Shown here piece after piece: positions 10,854 through 64,000 of a stretch of 64,000 bases of DNA. The number at the start of each line of letters is the position of its first letter. The first letter of the stretch is position 1. The notes under the pieces were generated by a model, which saw only the letters and a program-made list of their open reading frames with translations, had not been told where the DNA came from and made no database searches. The translations under genes and the position numbers were made by a program. The DNA is from Flavobacterium gelatinilyticum (lineage in GTDB: Bacteria; Bacteroidota; Bacteroidia; Flavobacteriales; Flavobacteriaceae), in assembly GCF_027111295.1 (NCBI RefSeq), contig NZ_CP114287.1, forward strand, positions 4,836,001-4,900,000, written 5' to 3'.

Positions 10854-10890
10854 AAAAAAGCCTGTAAACAAGAAGTTTACAGGCTTTTTT
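10854..10890 (-). terminator. Rho-independent terminator of tmRNA
   Basis: AGCCTGTAAAC (10859-10869) pairs perfectly with GTTTACAGGCT (10875-10885) around a 5-nt loop, with A-tract and T-tract flanks so that it can act on both strands. It lies immediately 3' of the tmRNA read on the minus strand. Confidence 0.85.
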
Positions 10891-10891
10891 G

Positions 10892-11285
10892 TGGAGTCGC
10901 CGGGAATCGAACCCGGGTCCAAACAAGCAACTAAAGAGCTTTCTACACGCTTATTTCCTGATTGAATTTTCGATGTTAAGCAAGGCCAGAAACAGCCACT
11001 CAACACTTATCTTCTTAATTTTCGAAATCCACCCGAAGCTCATGGAGATCTAGGTTTATTTTTACGGTTCCCCTTGACGGAACGCCACAAACCAAGGCTT
11101 TCCAGGAGAATCCAGCTTCCCTACCTTGTAGGGACGTGGCTAATCGTACTATGATTCAGATTATGCAGCTAAAGCGTAATTATTTTCGCCGTTTAAAAGT
11201 GTGAGATCTTATATTTACGAGCAAGGTCTCAATGCTCGGCGTGCTTACTGTTCAATTCGACTCGCTGTCAAAACCAGTCGACCCC
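10892..11285 (-). ncRNA. ssrA: tmRNA (transfer-messenger RNA)
   Basis: Read on the minus strand, the RNA begins GGGGTCG at 11285 and ends CGACTCC plus discriminator A at 10892; these ends form the 7-bp tRNA-like acceptor stem. The T-arm GGACCCGGGTTCGATTCCCGG-like segment lies just before the 3' end, and GGTTTTGACAGCGAGTCG follows the 5' end. The tag frame at 11193-11161 reads NGENNYALAA then TAA, a Bacteroidetes-type degradation tag. Length is about 394 nt. The full CCA is not encoded (A then CAAAA), so CCA must be added. It rescues stalled ribosomes with SmpB. Confidence 0.95.
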
Positions 11286-15721: not shown

Positions 15722-15798
15722 TATGATGTTTGTAAAATGTTATTCGGAAAATGTAAAAATGTCTAATTGTAAATTGAATTTCTTTTGAAAACGATAGT

Positions 15799-15880
15799 CT
15801 TAGCCCTGATGGAAGCGGCATCCTTTTTGTTTTTTCTTTAAAAACAAAAAGATACAGCGAACAGCAGGTTTCTGCTCCTT
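15799..15880. other. Structured intergenic element, candidate small RNA or MITE-like repeat
   Basis: Within the 336-bp gap between fumC and the small gene at 16058 there is a 12-bp perfect stem, CTTTTTGTTTTT (15823-15834) with AAAAACAAAAAG (15840-15851). It is flanked by AGCCCTGATGGAAGCGGCAT on one side and ACAGCGAACAGCAGG on the other, with a second small stem AGCAG/CTGCT at 15863-15876. The GC-containing flanks stand out from the AT-rich surroundings. I have the impression this flank/stem/flank pattern recurs between genes in Flavobacterium genomes, but cannot check it. Strand and function are unknown. Confidence 0.5.
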
Positions 15881-51444: not shown

Positions 51445-52482
51445 TCATGCATTTTCTTCTGTAGATTCATTCGAATTATATCTTGAAATAGCACGTTCTA
51501 AGATCTTTTTCATACGATTTCGTAAGTTCTCCGGACGCAGTACTTCGATGGAATCACCAAAGCCCAAAAGCAGTCTTTCCATCTCATAATTGGGAGAAAT
51601 AAACAAATGAACTATAACACTTCTATCTTCATTTTCCTTAATTACTCTTTGAGATGGATGAAGAGGCTTGGTGAGTACATAAGGCGCGTTCGAAGCATCA
51701 ATCCAAAGTTCAACTCGTCTGGGCTGTAAACCTGAATTTACCGTAACGCCAATAATATCCTTATAATAAGATTCGGCATCAAAATCTTCTTCTATATAAG
51801 AAAGGTTAAAATCGTAATCTATAGAAACGATTCTGTCTAAAGCTAAATTGGTAATGGGCTGCGTTGCTTTTTTCTTTCCAATTAAAAACCAGCGATTATT
51901 GAATTCTTTTAATATAAAAGGATGAAAGTGGAATACAGTTTCTTCTCGAGATTTAAAAGATTTATAAGTAATAATCAAAACCATCTTTTTGATAATGGCC
52001 TGATAAATTTCATCCAAATAATGAAGTCCTTTTAGTTTTTCATTTTTATCCAGATAAATTACCGGCTTAGTATGTGATTTTTCAGAATAGATTTTATCTT
52101 CCAATCGTTGTAGAATATCTGATACATCATTAAATAAGGAGAAATCTTTGAATTGCTTTAACATTGAAACAGTTTCGGTCAAAACATTCATATCGGTTTC
52201 CGTCAGCGGAATATCGGTTATCGAAAAATCTTCGTCTTCATATTTATAATATTTTTTATCGTAAACCACGATTGGCGCATTATAACCCAATTTTTCACTA
52301 CGCATCATCTGGATATCCATTTGAATGGTTCGTTTACTGATCGGAATCTTGCGTCCCTCATATTCTTCCAAAGCCTGAGAACAGCATTCGATTAAATCTT
52401 CAAGTGTCCATTGCCTGTACTTATTTTGCAGACATTTGTCGATGGTTTTGTATCGGATTAAGGCGTTTTTGTTTTGTGACAT
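51445..52482 (-). CDS. WYL-domain transcriptional regulator
   Basis: This 345-residue protein has an N-terminal HTH (about 1-65: KNALIRYKTIDKCLQNKYRQWTLEDLIECC, then RTIQMDIQMMR) and a WYL domain (about 140-215, with HFHPFILKEFNNRWFLIGKKK, where RWFLIG precedes the arginine-rich patch). A WCX-like C-terminal domain (about 235-335) has LWIDASNAPYVLTKPLHPSQRV. WYL regulators respond to nucleotides or nucleic acids and often control defence or DNA-damage genes. It is divergent from the T9SS cargo gene. A palindrome at 52588-52605 lies in the shared gap. Confidence 0.9.
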   Translation of the reverse strand: MSQNKNALIRYKTIDKCLQNKYRQWTLEDLIECCSQALEEYEGRKIPISKRTIQMDIQMMRSEKLGYNAPIVVYDKKYYKYEDEDFSITDIPLTETDMNVLTETVSMLKQFKDFSLFNDVSDILQRLEDKIYSEKSHTKPVIYLDKNEKLKGLHYLDEIYQAIIKKMVLIITYKSFKSREETVFHFHPFILKEFNNRWFLIGKKKATQPITNLALDRIVSIDYDFNLSYIEEDFDAESYYKDIIGVTVNSGLQPRRVELWIDASNAPYVLTKPLHPSQRVIKENEDRSVIVHLFISPNYEMERLLLGFGDSIEVLRPENLRNRMKKILERAISRYNSNESTEENA

Positions 52483-58780: not shown

Positions 58781-58840
58781 CAAATTTAAAATTCTTTTTT
58801 TACTACGCAAAATAATTGCGTAGTGGTTTTGAAATCTTTG
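58781..58840. promoter_or_regulatory. Divergent promoter region with palindrome copy 1 (TACGCAA-N5-TTGCGTA)
   Basis: The palindrome TACGCAAAATAATTGCGTA occupies 58804-58822. On the minus strand its CAA (58808-58810) supplies the TTG of a consensus promoter with 19-nt spacing to TAAATTTG (58781-58788) for the HD gene. On the plus strand AATCTTTG (58833-58840) lies 10 bp after the palindrome, followed by TTC, and would serve the gene at 58862. A protein bound here would control both directions. Confidence 0.7.
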
Positions 58841-58861
58841 TTCTGTCAAAATGAAACAATT

Positions 58862-59263
58862 ATGAAAACTATAAAAATTTATTGTAGAGAATGTGAAATA
58901 GAGTTAACTAATCAATTAATAGAGATTCCTGAAGAAAATTTATGTTGGGAAGATCGAGAAGATATTATGCCTGAGAATAACTTTTCAATAATTTTTGAAA
59001 AGGAAACAAAAATAAGACTTTTATTAGCTTCAATTGATGGTCATAATTTAAAAGACCATTCTGATACAAGAAAATTTCAAGGATGTTGCGGAAGCGCTGG
59101 ATGTAATGGTTTAAACAAGTTATGTTTAAATGGACATGATGTTGCAACTGAGATTTCTGATTGTTGGACAAGTCACTATATTAAATTTGATATTGATAAA
59201 GTAATTATTAAAGAAAAAATCGATGATTATAATTTTAGAAATTTAGAATTAGAAAGTATTTAA
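58862..59263 (+). CDS. Small Cys-rich protein, putative zinc binder, first gene of the cassette
   Basis: With the ATG at 58862 (MKTIKIYCRECEIELTNQLI) the protein has 133 residues; an in-frame upstream start lies inside the promoter. It carries CREC near the N-terminus and a second cluster FQGCCGSAGCNGLNKLCLNG (about residues 78-97), likely zinc ligands. No signal or membrane segment is seen. It is the first gene after palindrome copy 1 and ends 8 bp before copy 2. Family not recognised. Confidence 0.65.
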   Translation: MKTIKIYCRECEIELTNQLIEIPEENLCWEDREDIMPENNFSIIFEKETKIRLLLASIDGHNLKDHSDTRKFQGCCGSAGCNGLNKLCLNGHDVATEISDCWTSHYIKFDIDKVIIKEKIDDYNFRNLELESI

Positions 59264-59270
59264 TTCTTAA

Positions 59271-59307
59271 TACGCAAAATAATTGCGTACTAGTTTTAAA
59301 ATCTTTG
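59271..59307 (+). promoter_or_regulatory. Palindrome copy 2 and putative promoter of the non-coding leader
   Basis: TACGCAAAATAATTGCGTA at 59271-59289 is identical to copy 1. AATCTTTG follows after 10 bp at 59300-59307, again followed by TTC. Transcription would start near 59314, upstream of the first GGTCAA repeat and the tRNA-like RNA. Confidence 0.7.
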
Positions 59308-59434
59308 TTCAAGAAATAAAAAACAAACGTTCATAGAAATAAAAAATTGAAAAAAGCAGGTCAAGTTTAAGTTACTTCTAGAAACCTTTCCACGATTTAT
59401 ACTTATACCATTACCGCTTAATTTCAATTTTCAT

Positions 59435-59556
59435 GAAGCAGTAGCTCAGTTGGATAGAGCATTGGAATATTAGTTTTGAAATTATCATCAAAGGTCAATT
59501 AAAACTTACTTCAATTAGGGATCCAGAGGTCGTGGGTTCGAATCCCATCTGCTTCA
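59435..59556 (+). ncRNA. tRNA-like RNA with a 55-nt anticodon loop
   Basis: The acceptor arms GAAGCAG (59435-59441) and CTGCTTC (59549-59555) pair 7/7, followed by discriminator A. The D-arm region TAGCTCAGTTGGATAGAGCA is standard, the T-arm is GTGGG-TTCGAAT-CCCAT, and the variable loop is AGGTC. The anticodon stem TTGGA (59462-59466) with TCCAG (59522-59526) closes a loop of 55 nt instead of 7, containing repeat copy 2 of GGTCAA-N6-CTTACTTC. CCA is not encoded. It may be a tRNA mimic, a tRNA with an intron-like insert, or a decayed tRNA. The perfect arms argue against simple decay. Confidence 0.75.
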
Positions 59557-59584
59557 CTATTAATGGTCAATTAAAACTTACTTC

Positions 59585-59609
59585 TTAGGTTCGATTCCTA
59601 ACTCCCTCA
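59585..59609 (+). ncRNA. Orphan T-arm plus acceptor-like 3' end, second tRNA-like fragment
   Basis: Directly after repeat copy 3 the sequence reads TTAGG-TTCGATT-CCTAA, a correct T-stem and loop. CTCCCTC plus A follows, the length of an acceptor strand with discriminator. I find no matching 5' half (GAGGGAG), D-arm or anticodon arm nearby, so it is a 3' tRNA-like piece only. Confidence 0.5.
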
Positions 59610-59822
59610 GCGGGGGTTCCCGGTTATAAGTTTTAAAATTATCATTAATAAAAAAAACGAGGGTCAAAATCAGCTTACTTCTTGGGGATAACCCGCCAAA
59701 CTGTTAATTTGAAAACAGCTGATTCATTACACTCCAATTTAAGGTCAAGCGCTTCTTACTTCAAACACTCTTTTAGGTAGAACTCAGAAGCACAATTATC
59801 TAAATTTTAAAAATTAAAAAAA

Positions 59823-62063
59823 ATGAAAACAAAAGAATTATTAAAAATCAGTTTAAGTCAAAATGCTATTTTCATTCCATCAGAAATGATTGCGAATGAC
59901 AATAAGAATTTATCAGGAATAACATCGGTTTTTGCAGCCAATGTTTCAAAACTTGGATATACATTTTCTGAAACGTTACTGCATGCTTTAAATAATGTCA
60001 GCCCAAATTATAAAATCGAGGTTTTAGAAGTGCTGAGAGAAGTATTAGGAACAGATAAAAACTGGACACCATTGGTAAAAGAATGGAATGTGCCAACAAA
60101 TGAATCTGTTATCGATCATATCATCACATTTTTCGGAAATGTTTTTCAAACTAAAAACGGAACAGTTTTGCAATGCGGACATACAATTCCAGATAACACT
60201 TTTCCATTAGAAAGATACAACGGTTGCCCGTTTTGCGGAACTCCGTTTGAATTTGGTAAACTGGAAAATATGGGTCAAGGAAGTAAATTAAAAGTCCTTG
60301 AATTATGGAATGAGAAAGATTTAGAGAACTTTTATATTTCGTTATTACAGTCAAAAACCGCTTTAGACGCTACTCAGGTAGATAGTTTAAAAATGGCGAT
60401 GAAACATTTGGCATTGCCTAAAACTGAAATCGCAATGAAGGAAACTTTAATGCTGGTGATTGATCTTTTGATTGAAAACGCTAATGAAGATTTGGCTTCT
60501 CAGTTTTTGAAAACGCCAACCGATATTTTACGTTATTTATGGTATAAAAATACTGGAATGCTACAGATTATCGAGCCAAAAACGATTATCAAAAGAGCGG
60601 CTAAAAACGGTCAGCATTTTCATAATTCGTTAGATACAAGTGTGCTGGCAAGAATTACATCTAAAAAAGATTTGAAATTAAAATATTCCCGAAAAGAATG
60701 TTTAATGGTGGCAAATTGGTTGAACAATATGAATTTGGATGTCGGAGCCATGTGCGAAATCATGCATCCAAAAAGAGGAATGTGGGTTCGTTTTATCCGA
60801 GCGCTGCGTTTGGCAGAATACAGCAAAAGAAAAGGATTCGAGAAATTGAATTTTTTACTAGATGTATTCTACAACCAAGTGTACGATGTTTGGCAAAGCA
60901 AAGTGAATTCGTCAAGATTGAAATTTGATGCCGATAAAACATTCGGATTGTTGAAACAACGTCCAGGTTTGTTTGCTCGTTCATTGTTTTCGAATATGCT
61001 TTGGTTTGGAGCGAAGGAAACTATTGCTCATTTCGAAGAAGTTATTGATAAAGTTCCAGCGAGATTGGTGTTTACCTTAAACATGTATGCACAAAATTAT
61101 TTTGATGTAAACATGCAGAGAAGTGTGAAACCTTTGGGTGGAACAAACAAACGTGTGGGATCAAACCCATTGTTGAAGTTGTACGAAGATTTTATGTTGA
61201 CCGATATGAAAAATCAAATCGAAGACTTGACTATTTTGGCGATGAAAAAACGATTTGCGTCGGTTTCAAACCCAAATAAAACAATGTATATCGATCCACA
61301 ATTGTTTAATATGCCGGTTTCTATTGGAGATCGAAGCGATACCGTTCAGGATTTGCCAGTTGCTTTAATGGGAACACGTTTTGCAGTTGAAGGAAATGAA
61401 GTGCGATTGTTTATGCAATGGGGTAAAGATCTTCCAGCGCAACATTTAGATATGGATTTAAGCTGTCATATCGCTTACGAAGACCGTTCAGATATTTGTT
61501 CTTTCAGCCGATTAACAACTACGGGTTGTCAGCATAGCGGTGATATCAGAAGTATTCCGAATAAAATTGGAACGGCTGAATACATCAATATCAACATCGA
61601 CGAATTGGCAAAAGCCAAAGCAAAATTTGTAACTTTTACTTGCAATGCGTACAGCAACGGAAGTATTACGCCAAATTTGGTTGTAGGTTGGATGAACAGT
61701 AAATATCCGATGAAAATTTCGGAACGAACAGGTGTTGCATACGATCCGTCGTGTGTAGATCATCAGGTTCGTGTGACGCAAAATGTTGCCAAAGGTTTGG
61801 TTTTTGGAGTGTTGGATGTAGCCAAAAGAGAAATCGTTTGGTTAGAGATGACTTTCGGAGGTCAGGTTGTGGGAGTTTTGGATTTCAAAGGAGTTCAGGC
61901 GCTATTGGCAAAATTGAACAGCAAATTGAATATTGGTAATTTATTACAACTAAAAGCGGAAGCTCAAGGTTTAACGATTACCGAAAATGAAATCGCTGAT
62001 GAGGTGTATACAGCACAATGGGCGATGAACCCAGCAGTTGTTACCCAGCTTTTAATAGATTAA
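59823..62063 (+). CDS. RING-like / TerD-like fusion protein of the tRNA-like cassette
   Basis: This 746-residue cytoplasmic protein has residues 1-110 helical. A RING-like metal cluster at about 118-140 shows LQCGHTI (C118, H120) and CPFCGTPF (C135, C138). Residues 150-500 form a helical repeat region with many basic patches. Residues about 520-690 resemble TerD: LDMDLSCHIAYEDRS (D543 onward), QHSGDIRS (H571, D574), AEYININIDEL and FTCNAYSNGSI. From memory it resembles MXAN_6230/SCO0854-type RING-domain proteins of other phyla. It follows the non-coding leader without a separate promoter that I can see, and ends at a terminator. A role in RNA handling is inferred from context. Confidence 0.7.
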   Translation: MKTKELLKISLSQNAIFIPSEMIANDNKNLSGITSVFAANVSKLGYTFSETLLHALNNVSPNYKIEVLEVLREVLGTDKNWTPLVKEWNVPTNESVIDHIITFFGNVFQTKNGTVLQCGHTIPDNTFPLERYNGCPFCGTPFEFGKLENMGQGSKLKVLELWNEKDLENFYISLLQSKTALDATQVDSLKMAMKHLALPKTEIAMKETLMLVIDLLIENANEDLASQFLKTPTDILRYLWYKNTGMLQIIEPKTIIKRAAKNGQHFHNSLDTSVLARITSKKDLKLKYSRKECLMVANWLNNMNLDVGAMCEIMHPKRGMWVRFIRALRLAEYSKRKGFEKLNFLLDVFYNQVYDVWQSKVNSSRLKFDADKTFGLLKQRPGLFARSLFSNMLWFGAKETIAHFEEVIDKVPARLVFTLNMYAQNYFDVNMQRSVKPLGGTNKRVGSNPLLKLYEDFMLTDMKNQIEDLTILAMKKRFASVSNPNKTMYIDPQLFNMPVSIGDRSDTVQDLPVALMGTRFAVEGNEVRLFMQWGKDLPAQHLDMDLSCHIAYEDRSDICSFSRLTTTGCQHSGDIRSIPNKIGTAEYININIDELAKAKAKFVTFTCNAYSNGSITPNLVVGWMNSKYPMKISERTGVAYDPSCVDHQVRVTQNVAKGLVFGVLDVAKREIVWLEMTFGGQVVGVLDFKGVQALLAKLNSKLNIGNLLQLKAEAQGLTITENEIADEVYTAQWAMNPAVVTQLLID

Positions 62064-62159: not shown

Positions 62160-62711
62160 ATGGAATTTATAGATATAAACGATTTAAAATCAAAATATTC
62201 AAATTGCCAAACTAAAAGTGATAGTCAAACGATATTGCTTTTATACTCTTATATTTTAAAATATGAAAGAGTAGATAGTGATTGGTGGAGAGAAGATCAT
62301 GGATGTAATGATGTTGTATCAATTTTAGAAAGAACTTTTAATGATGAAGAATGGAATTTATTTGAAGAGGATATTGAAAACTGGACAGAAGATCAGATTG
62401 AATTATTTATTTTAAGTATTCTATCAGGTACTTCAGGTAACGGAATTGATGAAGACGAAAAAGTTAGAAATATTCAAAGAGAATATACATTAATGAAAAG
62501 AGCAGATTTTTTACTTAAGAAAAAAGAAATTTACTCCTCTATAATGCTATGGGATAATATTTGGTTTTTTGAAAAAATTCCTAATTTATCATTTGAGTAT
62601 TTAGATCAAATAGCAAAACATATCGGTTTTTATGAAAATCTTAATACCAAATGGGAAGATTCTGATGGTATGTATTTGTTTAAAAAAATCCTTAAAAGAG
62701 CGAAAAAATAA
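62160..62711 (+). CDS. Acidic orphan protein of the cassette
   Basis: The protein has 183 residues from the ATG at 62160 (MEFIDINDLKSKYSNC); an ATG at 62154 in the same frame is nearly as good. It is acidic and helical, with SDWWREDHGCNDVV and EEWNLFEEDIENWTEDQIELFILSILSG. No known motif or export signal. The stop overlaps the next start (TAATG), so it is coupled to the SMI1/KNR4-like gene. Such acidic partner proteins often occur as immunity proteins; this is only a possibility. Confidence 0.6.
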   Translation: MEFIDINDLKSKYSNCQTKSDSQTILLLYSYILKYERVDSDWWREDHGCNDVVSILERTFNDEEWNLFEEDIENWTEDQIELFILSILSGTSGNGIDEDEKVRNIQREYTLMKRADFLLKKKEIYSSIMLWDNIWFFEKIPNLSFEYLDQIAKHIGFYENLNTKWEDSDGMYLFKKILKRAKK

Positions 62712-63247
62712 TGACAATTAAAGATATCAAATACAAAGCTGAAAAAAAGTTTAAAAGAATAAAAATCAGAGATGATGTTTGGGGATTCCAAGTACAATCA
62801 AATGCTAAATTTTTAAAAGGTATAAGTAGAAAGAAAATTGATGAATTGCAAACATTGTTTGGATTTGATTTTCCTTGGGAATACAAAGAAATGCTATTGA
62901 TTTTTTCTAATATAGACACACATCTGATTTCAATTAATCCTGAAGACGAAACAGATATTGAATATGGCAGGGAAAACCTTTTTTATGAGTATCCAGAGGA
63001 TTACGAAAAATCACGATGGATTATAGATGAGATTAATGAAAATAAATCGATAGCAGAATTGGTTCTTACAGAAGCGGGTTTTGATATTTCAAAAATAGTA
63101 GGATATATTCCAATGCATAATCATCGTGTTCTGGTGGTTTTTGAAGATAAGCATCTTTCACCCGTTATTTCTGCTTGGGGCGCTGATATTATTATGTTTG
63201 GAAACAATTTGAGAGAATATTTAAAAAATGAACTTTTAAGGTTTTAG
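62711..63247 (+). CDS. SMI1/KNR4 (SUKH) family protein
   Basis: This 178-residue protein has the SUKH pattern: ISRKKIDELQTLFGFDFPWEYKEMLLIFS near the N-terminus, a central acidic part, and IVGYIPMHNHRVLVVFEDKHLSPVISAWGADIIMFGNNLREYL, the late strands of the fold. SUKH proteins are often immunity proteins against nuclease toxins, or general stress proteins. It overlaps the upstream gene by one base (TAATG). The next gene starts 22 bp on. Confidence 0.8.
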   Translation: MTIKDIKYKAEKKFKRIKIRDDVWGFQVQSNAKFLKGISRKKIDELQTLFGFDFPWEYKEMLLIFSNIDTHLISINPEDETDIEYGRENLFYEYPEDYEKSRWIIDEINENKSIAELVLTEAGFDISKIVGYIPMHNHRVLVVFEDKHLSPVISAWGADIIMFGNNLREYLKNELLRF

Positions 63248-63268: not shown

Positions 63269-64000
63269 ATGAAAACAAATTTTCCATATCCATATTACCT
63301 CTATGGTTCTGATGATTCTACAGACAAAGACGTAATCATTGTTATTTCAAAAGAAGAAATGCCTGAGAAGCAGGAAGACAGAAAAAATAAAGTACTGGCA
63401 CTTTTGAAAGAATATGATTTGAATTGGAATGCAACTTTTGTGGTAATTGAAAACGGAAAAATTTCAGATACGATTTTTACTAAATCATGGATTGATTCGC
63501 TTAACAATGCGTTGCTTGAAACGTATTCATTACATCAACAAAAGCATGAATTATTAATAACAGAAAAACATATCAGAAATAAGACTTTAGCAATTTATAA
63601 AGCAGTTCGTACTGTGTTGACAATGTTAACCAGAACGGAATATAGAACTCAGATTCGTCCAATTTTAAAAGGAATTCATGATTTTAATTTAAAACTAGAA
63701 GCGTTTAAGAATATAGATTTTGTTTCGATTTCCCAGTTTAATCAGAAGAATACTGATGATATTGATATTTGGAAAATCATTGCTTTTTATGTCGGACAAA
63801 ATATCGCTTTAATTGAAAATGATGTTGAAATATATACCAAGAAAAAATTAGTACATCATTTTAAGGATTTGGAACCTTTTATTTATAGAAAAGCAATTCT
63901 AGAGGAGGATAAAAAAGTATTGCAGAATTATATCAACCATTGGTTGTCGCTGGTTCACAATTTTGGACCGTTTCGATCAGAAAATGGTTTTTTGACTTGT
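63269..64000 (+). CDS. Nucleotidyltransferase-like protein (3' end outside window)
   Basis: ATG at 63269 opens a frame that stays open for 244 codons to the window edge. It begins MKTNFPYPYYLYGSDDSTDKD. The Y-G-S-D-D-S-T-D-K-D segment (G13, S14, D19, D21) followed by VIIVIS resembles the GS...DxD active site of minimal nucleotidyltransferases of the pol-beta fold, but the GS-to-DxD distance is unusually short. The rest is helical (HIRNKTLAIYKAVRTVLTMLTRTEYR). It is probably co-transcribed with the SMI1 gene. Function is tentative. Confidence 0.6.
   Translation, partial: MKTNFPYPYYLYGSDDSTDKDVIIVISKEEMPEKQEDRKNKVLALLKEYDLNWNATFVVIENGKISDTIFTKSWIDSLNNALLETYSLHQQKHELLITEKHIRNKTLAIYKAVRTVLTMLTRTEYRTQIRPILKGIHDFNLKLEAFKNIDFVSISQFNQKNTDDIDIWKIIAFYVGQNIALIENDVEIYTKKKLVHHFKDLEPFIYRKAILEEDKKVLQNYINHWLSLVHNFGPFRSENGFLTC

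Follow-up and report, generated by a model that had tools for sequence, protein, structure and literature searches.

Genes and regulatory features at the locus

The window analysed here is the whole stretch of 64,000 nt from position 4,836,001 to 4,900,000 of the forward strand of contig NZ_CP114287.1 of Flavobacterium gelatinilyticum. Towards its 3′ end it contains an array of short hairpin elements, a tRNA cloverleaf interrupted in its anticodon arm (59435..59556, + strand) and the gene for a 746-aa protein (59823..62063, + strand). Pfam, a family model and a fold comparison point to a Prok-RING_4-like stretch, a Ro60-like helical ring and a TerD domain in this protein. The RING-like stretch scores below the Pfam cut-off, and the match to the MXAN_6230/SCO0854 RING family (NF041916) reaches 126 bits over residues 15–682, short of the curated cut-off of 600 bits; by its sequence the protein is a distant MXAN_6230/SCO0854 relative. 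When the ring domain alone was used in a fold search, whole-domain alignments among the first 15 matches were obtained only with four Ro60/Rsr entries, a middling fold match which suggests that the middle of the protein may form a Ro60-like helical ring. The TROVE domain (Pfam PF05731) had no match in the protein up to E 1 and none in its own genome, and hhalign did not find it in the protein either, which is a weak negative with such shallow profiles (Neff about 2). A PDB sequence search with the protein returned only two ABC-transporter matches at E 0.08. PADLOC had no match for the protein or for the six downstream genes given; the WYL gene described below matches WYL models.

Downstream, a 256-aa gene taken from the ORF list (63269..64000, + strand) runs past the window end; it has no Pfam match and is nucleotidyltransferase-like by eye only. 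Beyond it, ORF lists and Pfam place a 246-aa gene and genes for an Rnl1-like ligase, Hen1, a PNKP ligase and PNKP (L031). For comparison, 91 distinct homologous loci were used (100 minus 9 duplicates); because loci L078–L157 are the best 80 of 459 relatives, distant members are under-sampled. Repair enzymes are encoded in the downstream DNA covered for 71 of the 91 loci, namely RtcB in 46 and Rnl/Hen1/PNKP in 25. The initial annotation had connected the locus with Ro and RNA-repair proteins; this connection is supported by the enzymes of the operon and weakly by the middling fold match to Ro60/Rsr.

An SUKH/SMI1-KNR4-like ORF, below the Pfam cut-off, lies between the 746-aa gene and the repair genes (62711–63247), and its product is perhaps an immunity-type protein. 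Genes that ARAGORN called as tRNA-Trp, tRNA-Ser and tRNA-Asp are clustered 3′ of the repair genes in the same genome (L031:14678–15118), where one Rfam match scores only 44.6 bits. The window also contains an ordinary Flavo-1 RNA (15798–15875) and an ordinary tmRNA (10889–11285), both found with Rfam.

An operator- or promoter-like region, recognized as a repeat and by comparative counts, marks the start of the leader (59264..59326, + strand), where the palindrome TACGCA-n7-TGCGTA is followed by a TTTG promoter-like box. In 83 of the 91 loci, the 300 nt preceding the first element contain a palindrome of the form TRCGCA-n5–9-TGCGYA, compared with 83 occurrences in 721,681 downstream bases; the promoter-like box follows it in 76 loci. 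The combination is present twice in the window, in two copies that are 81% alike, one (58797–58859) preceding a 133-aa cysteine-containing ORF (58862–59263) and the other (59264–59326) the element array. The paired palindromes suggest a small regulon, whose controller is perhaps the WYL-domain regulator encoded at 51445..52482 on the − strand (Pfam WYL and WCX); a WYL-like ORF was seen by eye upstream on the opposite strand in 16 of the 19 relatives listed.

A permutable hairpin element

The motif GGTCAA-N6-CTTACTTC occurs at 59359 (with one mismatch), 59493, 59565, 59662 and 59743. A search of the window with two mismatches allowed gave 7 matches against 0.43 expected, the two outside the array being scattered singles. 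In the 5.83-Mb genome, the exact form GGTCAA-N7-TTACTTC was found only in the five array copies, and one mismatch added nine further matches. Array copies and the 91 loci give the consensus GGU-CAA-P1(8 nt)-UACUUC-loop-P1′(8 nt)-N-AUY-AYC, in which GGU pairs with AYC to form helix P0 and P1 is unconstrained in sequence except for its last pair (U-A). About 18 conserved nucleotides surround two helices.

The pairing is well conserved. In 88 of the 91 loci, at least 7 of the 8 P1 positions of the element closest to the ORF can pair with the 8-nt segment that ends one base short of the AUYA anchor, whereas about 4 such loci are expected when the letters of P1 are shuffled. Among 26 diverse copies, the covariation score was 0.315, compared with 0.134 for shuffled and at most 0.171 for slid alignments, and 86% of the cells were paired. 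The 28-row alignment A4, which is the earlier alignment plus four viral copies and window element 1 minus three rows, scored 0.466 versus 0.154 when shuffled; of five covariation measures for A4, four were never reached in 500 shuffles and one was reached in 33. A Rfam 15 scan of 59250–59830 yielded 5 matches up to E 10, which besides the tRNA were at chance level, with none to a Y RNA or a group I intron. The five-copy hairpin is an RNA element without a Rfam 15 match.

All five copies lie on the + strand. Element 1 is plain (59351..59422; GGUCAA at 59359, UACUUC at 59373, AUUACC end at 59415) and is matched by the covariance model R1 with 51.5 bits (E 1.2e-8), being itself part of the training alignment. 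Element 2 (59472..59512), recognized from its sequence and from the pairing of its permuted P1 in relatives, lies inside the tRNA. Its parts appear in the order P1′ (59472–59479), AUUAUC (59481–59486), short loop, GGUCAA (59493–59498), P1 (59499–59506) and UACUUC (59507–59512); they are thus permuted, and the tRNA therefore occupies the loop position of the element. Element 3 (59557..59650; R1 44.6 bits, E 4.7e-7) is plain and carries the top half of a tRNA in its loop, with the T-arm UUAGG-UUCGAUU-CCUAA and, by eye, a closed acceptor-like stem and a GG-containing loop; its P1 stands, also by eye, where the anticodon stem of a tRNA would be. Y RNAs of the YrlA type have a comparable layout, in which a tRNA top half with a closed acceptor is joined to a stem at the anticodon position. 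Element 4 is plain (59659..59734; GGUCAA 59662, P1 59668–59675, UACUUC 59676–59681, P1′ 59717–59724) with an R1 score of 29.9 bits (E 0.001). Element 5, likewise plain, is located directly 5′ of the start codon of the 746-aa gene (59735..59807); it scores 77.2 bits with R1, in whose training alignment it is included, and is supported by covariation among orthologues. Across the loci, 36 of 313 plain elements, from 35 loci, enclose a T-arm when loops up to 60 nt are considered, against 0.02 expected.

Linkage of the element to the 746-aa gene

Each of the 91 loci has at least one element on the sense strand in the 2 kb preceding the 746-aa gene, and 80 of them have four to seven strict copies upstream. 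Elsewhere in these stretches the element was absent: neither the 722 kb of downstream sequence, nor the 219 kb lying farther upstream, nor the opposite strand contained a copy. The plain-element pattern was detected in 22 of 199 relatives, comprising the 20 holders of the gene and two with an unpaired P1, while a reversed control pattern was detected in 3. Under stricter filters, R1 matched 11 of 395 genomes of the phylum, the same 11 that encode the full-length protein; 10 further genomes of this sample match the TerD part of the protein only. These results strongly support the assignment of the tRNA-like RNA to the adjacent cassette in the initial annotation, which had proposed a covariance search for the same RNA beside homologues of the 746-aa gene and had named loss of the insert beside a retained gene as evidence against its view. 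The insert-bearing tRNA is kept in 84 of the 91 loci.

Gene, elements matched by R1 and, by eye, a tRNA-like sequence were also found on Hymenobacter and Segatella plasmids. A Prevotella relative had no strict element in the fetched stretch and one weak R1 match (37.8 bits), and the fetched stretches of protein relatives in Variovorax and Niallia contained neither a strict element nor an R1 match. On the Variovorax plasmid (L357), a RING protein of 24.5% identity is encoded near rtcR, which connects this family with RNA repair outside the Bacteroidota.

An interrupted tRNA and the predicted effect of removing its insert

The cloverleaf at 59435–59556 scores 55.3 bits with the Rfam tRNA model RF00005, well above the gathering score of 29. 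Its acceptor stem pairs 7/7 (59435–59441 with 59549–59555), the D-arm is GCUC/GAGC, the T-arm GUGGG-UUCGAAU-CCCAU, and the anticodon stem UUGGA/UCCAG (59462–59466 with 59522–59526) encloses a loop of 55 nt (59467–59521) in place of a contiguous anticodon arm. ARAGORN called no tRNA here. The cloverleaf with a 55-nt anticodon loop and its single motif copy, at 59493, were as first described. The 5-bp anticodon stem is present in the sequence, but the lowest-energy fold replaces it by pairing AUUGGA with UUCAAU, retaining the acceptor, D and T arms as well as the 8-bp P1 of the insert; the fold energy is mildly better than that of shuffles (z −2.26).

Frames of this kind are common among the relatives. 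Our search, restricted to D-arms matching GCTC..GAGC, detected 100 tRNA frames at 87 of the 91 loci. In 93 of these frames (84 loci) the anticodon arm contains an element, in the other 7 it does not; because of the D-arm restriction, insert-bearing tRNAs with other D-arms, seen by eye at L152 and L157, lie outside the 93. Within the 93 frames, the acceptor pairs 7/7 in 86, with 22 different acceptor stems. At least 7 of the 8 positions of the permuted P1 are paired in 79 frames, where the control gave 1.2; the anchor is missing in 4. In an Aquimarina locus (L135), a plain element is nested by eye inside an outer permuted one. At least three tRNAs lie upstream in 8 of the 91 loci, with 3–15 each according to ARAGORN, and none in 80 of the 91.

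If the insert is an intron, its removal must give a 5-bp stem and a 7-nt loop. In silico excision between nt 28 and 29, a single position applied to all frames, produced 5/5 stem pairs in 68 of the 93 frames, compared with a mean of 1.1 and a maximum of 4 in 200 shuffles of the 3′ part. With other excision positions allowed, 82 of the 93 frames were restored, 76 of them with U33, against about 6.6 in the null. The restored anticodon loops were CUUUUAA (Lys) in 42 and CUUCUAA (Arg) in 18 of the 82 frames, and the remaining anticodons include Pro, Ile, Gly, Asp and Asn. ARAGORN called 89 of 93 frames after excision and 0 of 93 before; as the point of excision had been selected for its fit, this is a consistency check. 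In a minority type of frame, to which the window copy belongs, the insert lies at or in the loop; excision from the window copy would leave the loop UUAGGGA, or AUAGGGA by hand, and in both cases the anticodon AGG (Pro).

Intact genes for tRNA Lys-UUU, Arg-UCU and Pro-UGG are present in the own genome, as called by ARAGORN in 48 stretches; these stretches (L203/L329 and L204/L330 left out) contain no intact AGG tRNA gene. A comparison of the window tRNA with the intact tRNAs of its genome, which gave at best 76% identity (Thr-UGU), was not used. As candidate tRNA ligases, the genome encodes RtcB elsewhere and the Rnl1-like ligase and PNKP downstream of the array. The archaeal-type splicing endonuclease (PF01974) had 0 matches in the own genome and was detected in the 4 archaea among 14 controls.

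Occurrence in phages

A first viral scan gave at least 120 stretches, 80 of them listed. Out of 181 viral contigs examined, 4 contain a plain element with 8/8 P1 pairs and a closing P0, as a single copy per stretch. With a stricter pattern, 13 contigs were obtained, of which 4 pair 8/8 in P1 and 9 only 3–4. The permuted pattern matched 66 viral stretches; the best two represent one shared sequence with 7/8 P1 pairs and, by eye, no surrounding tRNA. One element-bearing contig is identical over the compared parts to the Crassvirales phage cr60_1, in which the element stands directly 5′ of a gene annotated as RNA polymerase sigma-W factor. In the same slot, R1 matches cr52_1 with 43.8 bits and cr113_1 weakly (18.9 bits, E 0.03); it did not match this slot in cr56_1, cr4_1, cr53_1, cr10_1 and one further phage. 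The presence of the element in Crassvirales suggests a phage-host conflict over RNA repair, and a role of the phage copy as a sponge or in counter-defence is a guess.

The slot before the sigma-W gene varies among related Crassvirales (L420, L456–L462), holding the element, other structured-looking inserts or a T-arm-like hairpin. In cr113_1 (L457, 385–495), the diverged element has about 40 nt inserted between GGUCAA and P1. A viral copy lies in a stretch of about 840 nt without ORFs of 90 aa (L307:4650–5490). By eye this stretch shows hairpins and an end resembling a terminator; it has no Rfam match and is possibly a large noncoding RNA.

Interpretation of the element

Our leading explanation, to which we give somewhat less than an even chance, is that the element serves as the handle of a Ro60-like ribonucleoprotein (RNP) and that, where it sits in spare tRNAs, it is an excisable insert that hides the anticodon until ligases bring these tRNAs to maturity. 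It is favoured because of the restored anticodon arms and the ligases. The hairpin array would then be carried by the leader of a stress-type RNA-repair operon, and each element would offer a binding handle to the 746-aa protein with its putative Ro60-like ring, RING and TerD parts. One permuted copy in the anticodon arm of a spare tRNA may mask the anticodon, making this tRNA a client of the RNP. RNA or translation stress would induce transcription of the leader, upon which the insert would be cut out and the halves joined by RtcB or by PNKP plus Rnl, yielding a working reserve tRNA. The other copies might present tRNA-like pieces (T-arm or acceptor) or, at the site before the ORF, hold the protein or feed back on the mRNA. 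The element with its fold and covariation, its link to the gene, the restored anticodon arm and the repair enzymes are observed; protein binding, masking, excision, ligation and induction are what the model adds to them. In its widest form, the proposal is that Bacteroidota possess RNP-dependent tRNA introns, in which a permutable element is removed by a Ro60-like RNP and an operon ligase on RNA damage as a third way of tRNA splicing, and that Crassvirales have copied the element as a means of disturbing or exploiting this process; we put this forward tentatively, as a claim rather more probably wrong than right.

An unspliced, YrlA-like tRNA mimic ranks close behind the removable insert, as a possible but less probable reading. 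Here the RNA would be a Y-RNA-like handle whose tRNA, together with the top half in element 3, is presented by the Ro-like protein as modules for docking or as baits and sensors for anticodon nucleases, the anticodon arm being a side branch. This reading gains from the copies outside tRNAs, from tRNA bodies that are alike with varied anticodons (mostly Lys-UUU and Arg-UCU) and from the fact that no nuclease was recognised; the T-arms within plain-element loops and the resemblance of element 3 to YrlA are in line with it. For YrlA itself, PMC7790460 describes a tRNA-like domain and suggests that the RNA may be a competitive inhibitor of an anticodon nuclease. A mimic alone does not require the restored 5-bp stem and 7-nt loop with U33, however, and the runs of intact tRNAs in 8 of the 91 loci point to tRNA supply. 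The initial annotation had offered a tRNA-mimic noncoding RNA or a tRNA with a processed insert, and both survive as the leading pair.

We consider it improbable that the element is a self-cleaving ribozyme that excises itself and leaves 2′,3′-cyclic phosphate and 5′-OH ends for RtcB or PNKP/Rnl. Circular permutation is known for small ribozymes, and the permuted copies, the small conserved core with two helices, the ligases accepting such ends and the single copies in phages would all be compatible with this. Yet the element tracks the protein in two genome samples, which a self-sufficient ribozyme would not need, and no Rfam ribozyme family matched at the array. Pure cis-regulation, with the hairpins as autoregulatory sites of the operon and the tRNA as a degenerate relic caught between them, is less probable still: every copy in the scanned stretches lies upstream of the 746-aa gene, and a phage copy directly precedes a gene annotated as sigma factor, but a relic would decay, while 84 of 91 loci have retained the tRNA frame, with intact acceptors of many different sequences. 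Chance or an annotation artefact, for which only the mild fold energy of the window copy could be cited, has a negligible probability and is refuted by locus linkage, genome distribution, covariation and the restored anticodon arms.

Comparison with known systems

Literature searches on the protein family and on SPFH/tRNA-like RNAs listed nothing on the element, which going by the literature listings and Rfam 15 appears to be undescribed; a permutable element, its use inside tRNAs and its presence in Crassvirales were likewise absent from these listings. If the insert is excised, it would represent a bacterial tRNA intron of neither group I nor archaeal type, controlled by an RNA-damage operon, and it would become directly testable what RtcB and Pnkp/Rnl do next to tRNA-like RNAs. 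If it is not excised, there is still an element unmatched in Rfam 15 that accompanies a Ro60-like protein in many Bacteroidota and also occurs in Crassvirales.

Group I introns interrupt the anticodon region of bacterial tRNAs (PMC4090602), and so does the insert; the latter measures about 48 nt and has no Rfam group I match. The same source places the protein-spliced tRNA introns of archaea and eukaryotes one nt 3′ of the anticodon. They share with the present case a short insert in the anticodon arm and, in 46 of the 91 loci, a nearby RtcB-type ligase, but here the host is bacterial, 68 of the 82 frames that can give 5/5 stem pairs have the insert between nt 28 and 29, the genome lacks a match to the archaeal-type endonuclease and, by eye, a conserved element replaces the bulge-helix-bulge.

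In Anabaena, a silent trn operon of 26 tRNAs is repressed by TrcR together with rtcB, and a slipin gene rises in the trcR mutant (PMC10272220). Extra tRNAs tied to rtcB and translational stress are a common feature with the 3–15 upstream tRNAs seen here in 8 of the 91 loci; the regulator is a different one, and the passages on that operon mention no insert or element. At a Myroides-like locus (L050), a slipin-like ORF (by eye) lies upstream and an ORF with RtcB motifs directly downstream. Burroughs and Aravind (2016) reportedly described a 'novel tRNA-like molecule' of SPFH/Band-7 and ROT/TROVE repair systems, which may overlap with the RNA of the window. The tRNA-like partner of ROT/TROVE is cited in PMC7824862 and would likewise accompany an RNA-repair ribonucleoprotein platform.

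Beside repair ligases, tRNA-like RNAs are already known from this partner (PMC7824862) and from YrlA (PMC7790460). The latter describes YrlA-type Y RNAs with the Ro60 orthologue Rsr in rsr-yrlBA-rtcBA operons, and the present locus resembles them in encoding a tRNA-like RNA beside a putative Ro-type protein and an RNA ligase, and also, by eye, in the layout of element 3. It differs in that the array has no Rfam Y RNA match, that the 746-aa partner has no TROVE match by sequence and carries RING and TerD parts, and that there are multiple copies, permuted copies and a complete tRNA possessing both its 5′ and 3′ ends.
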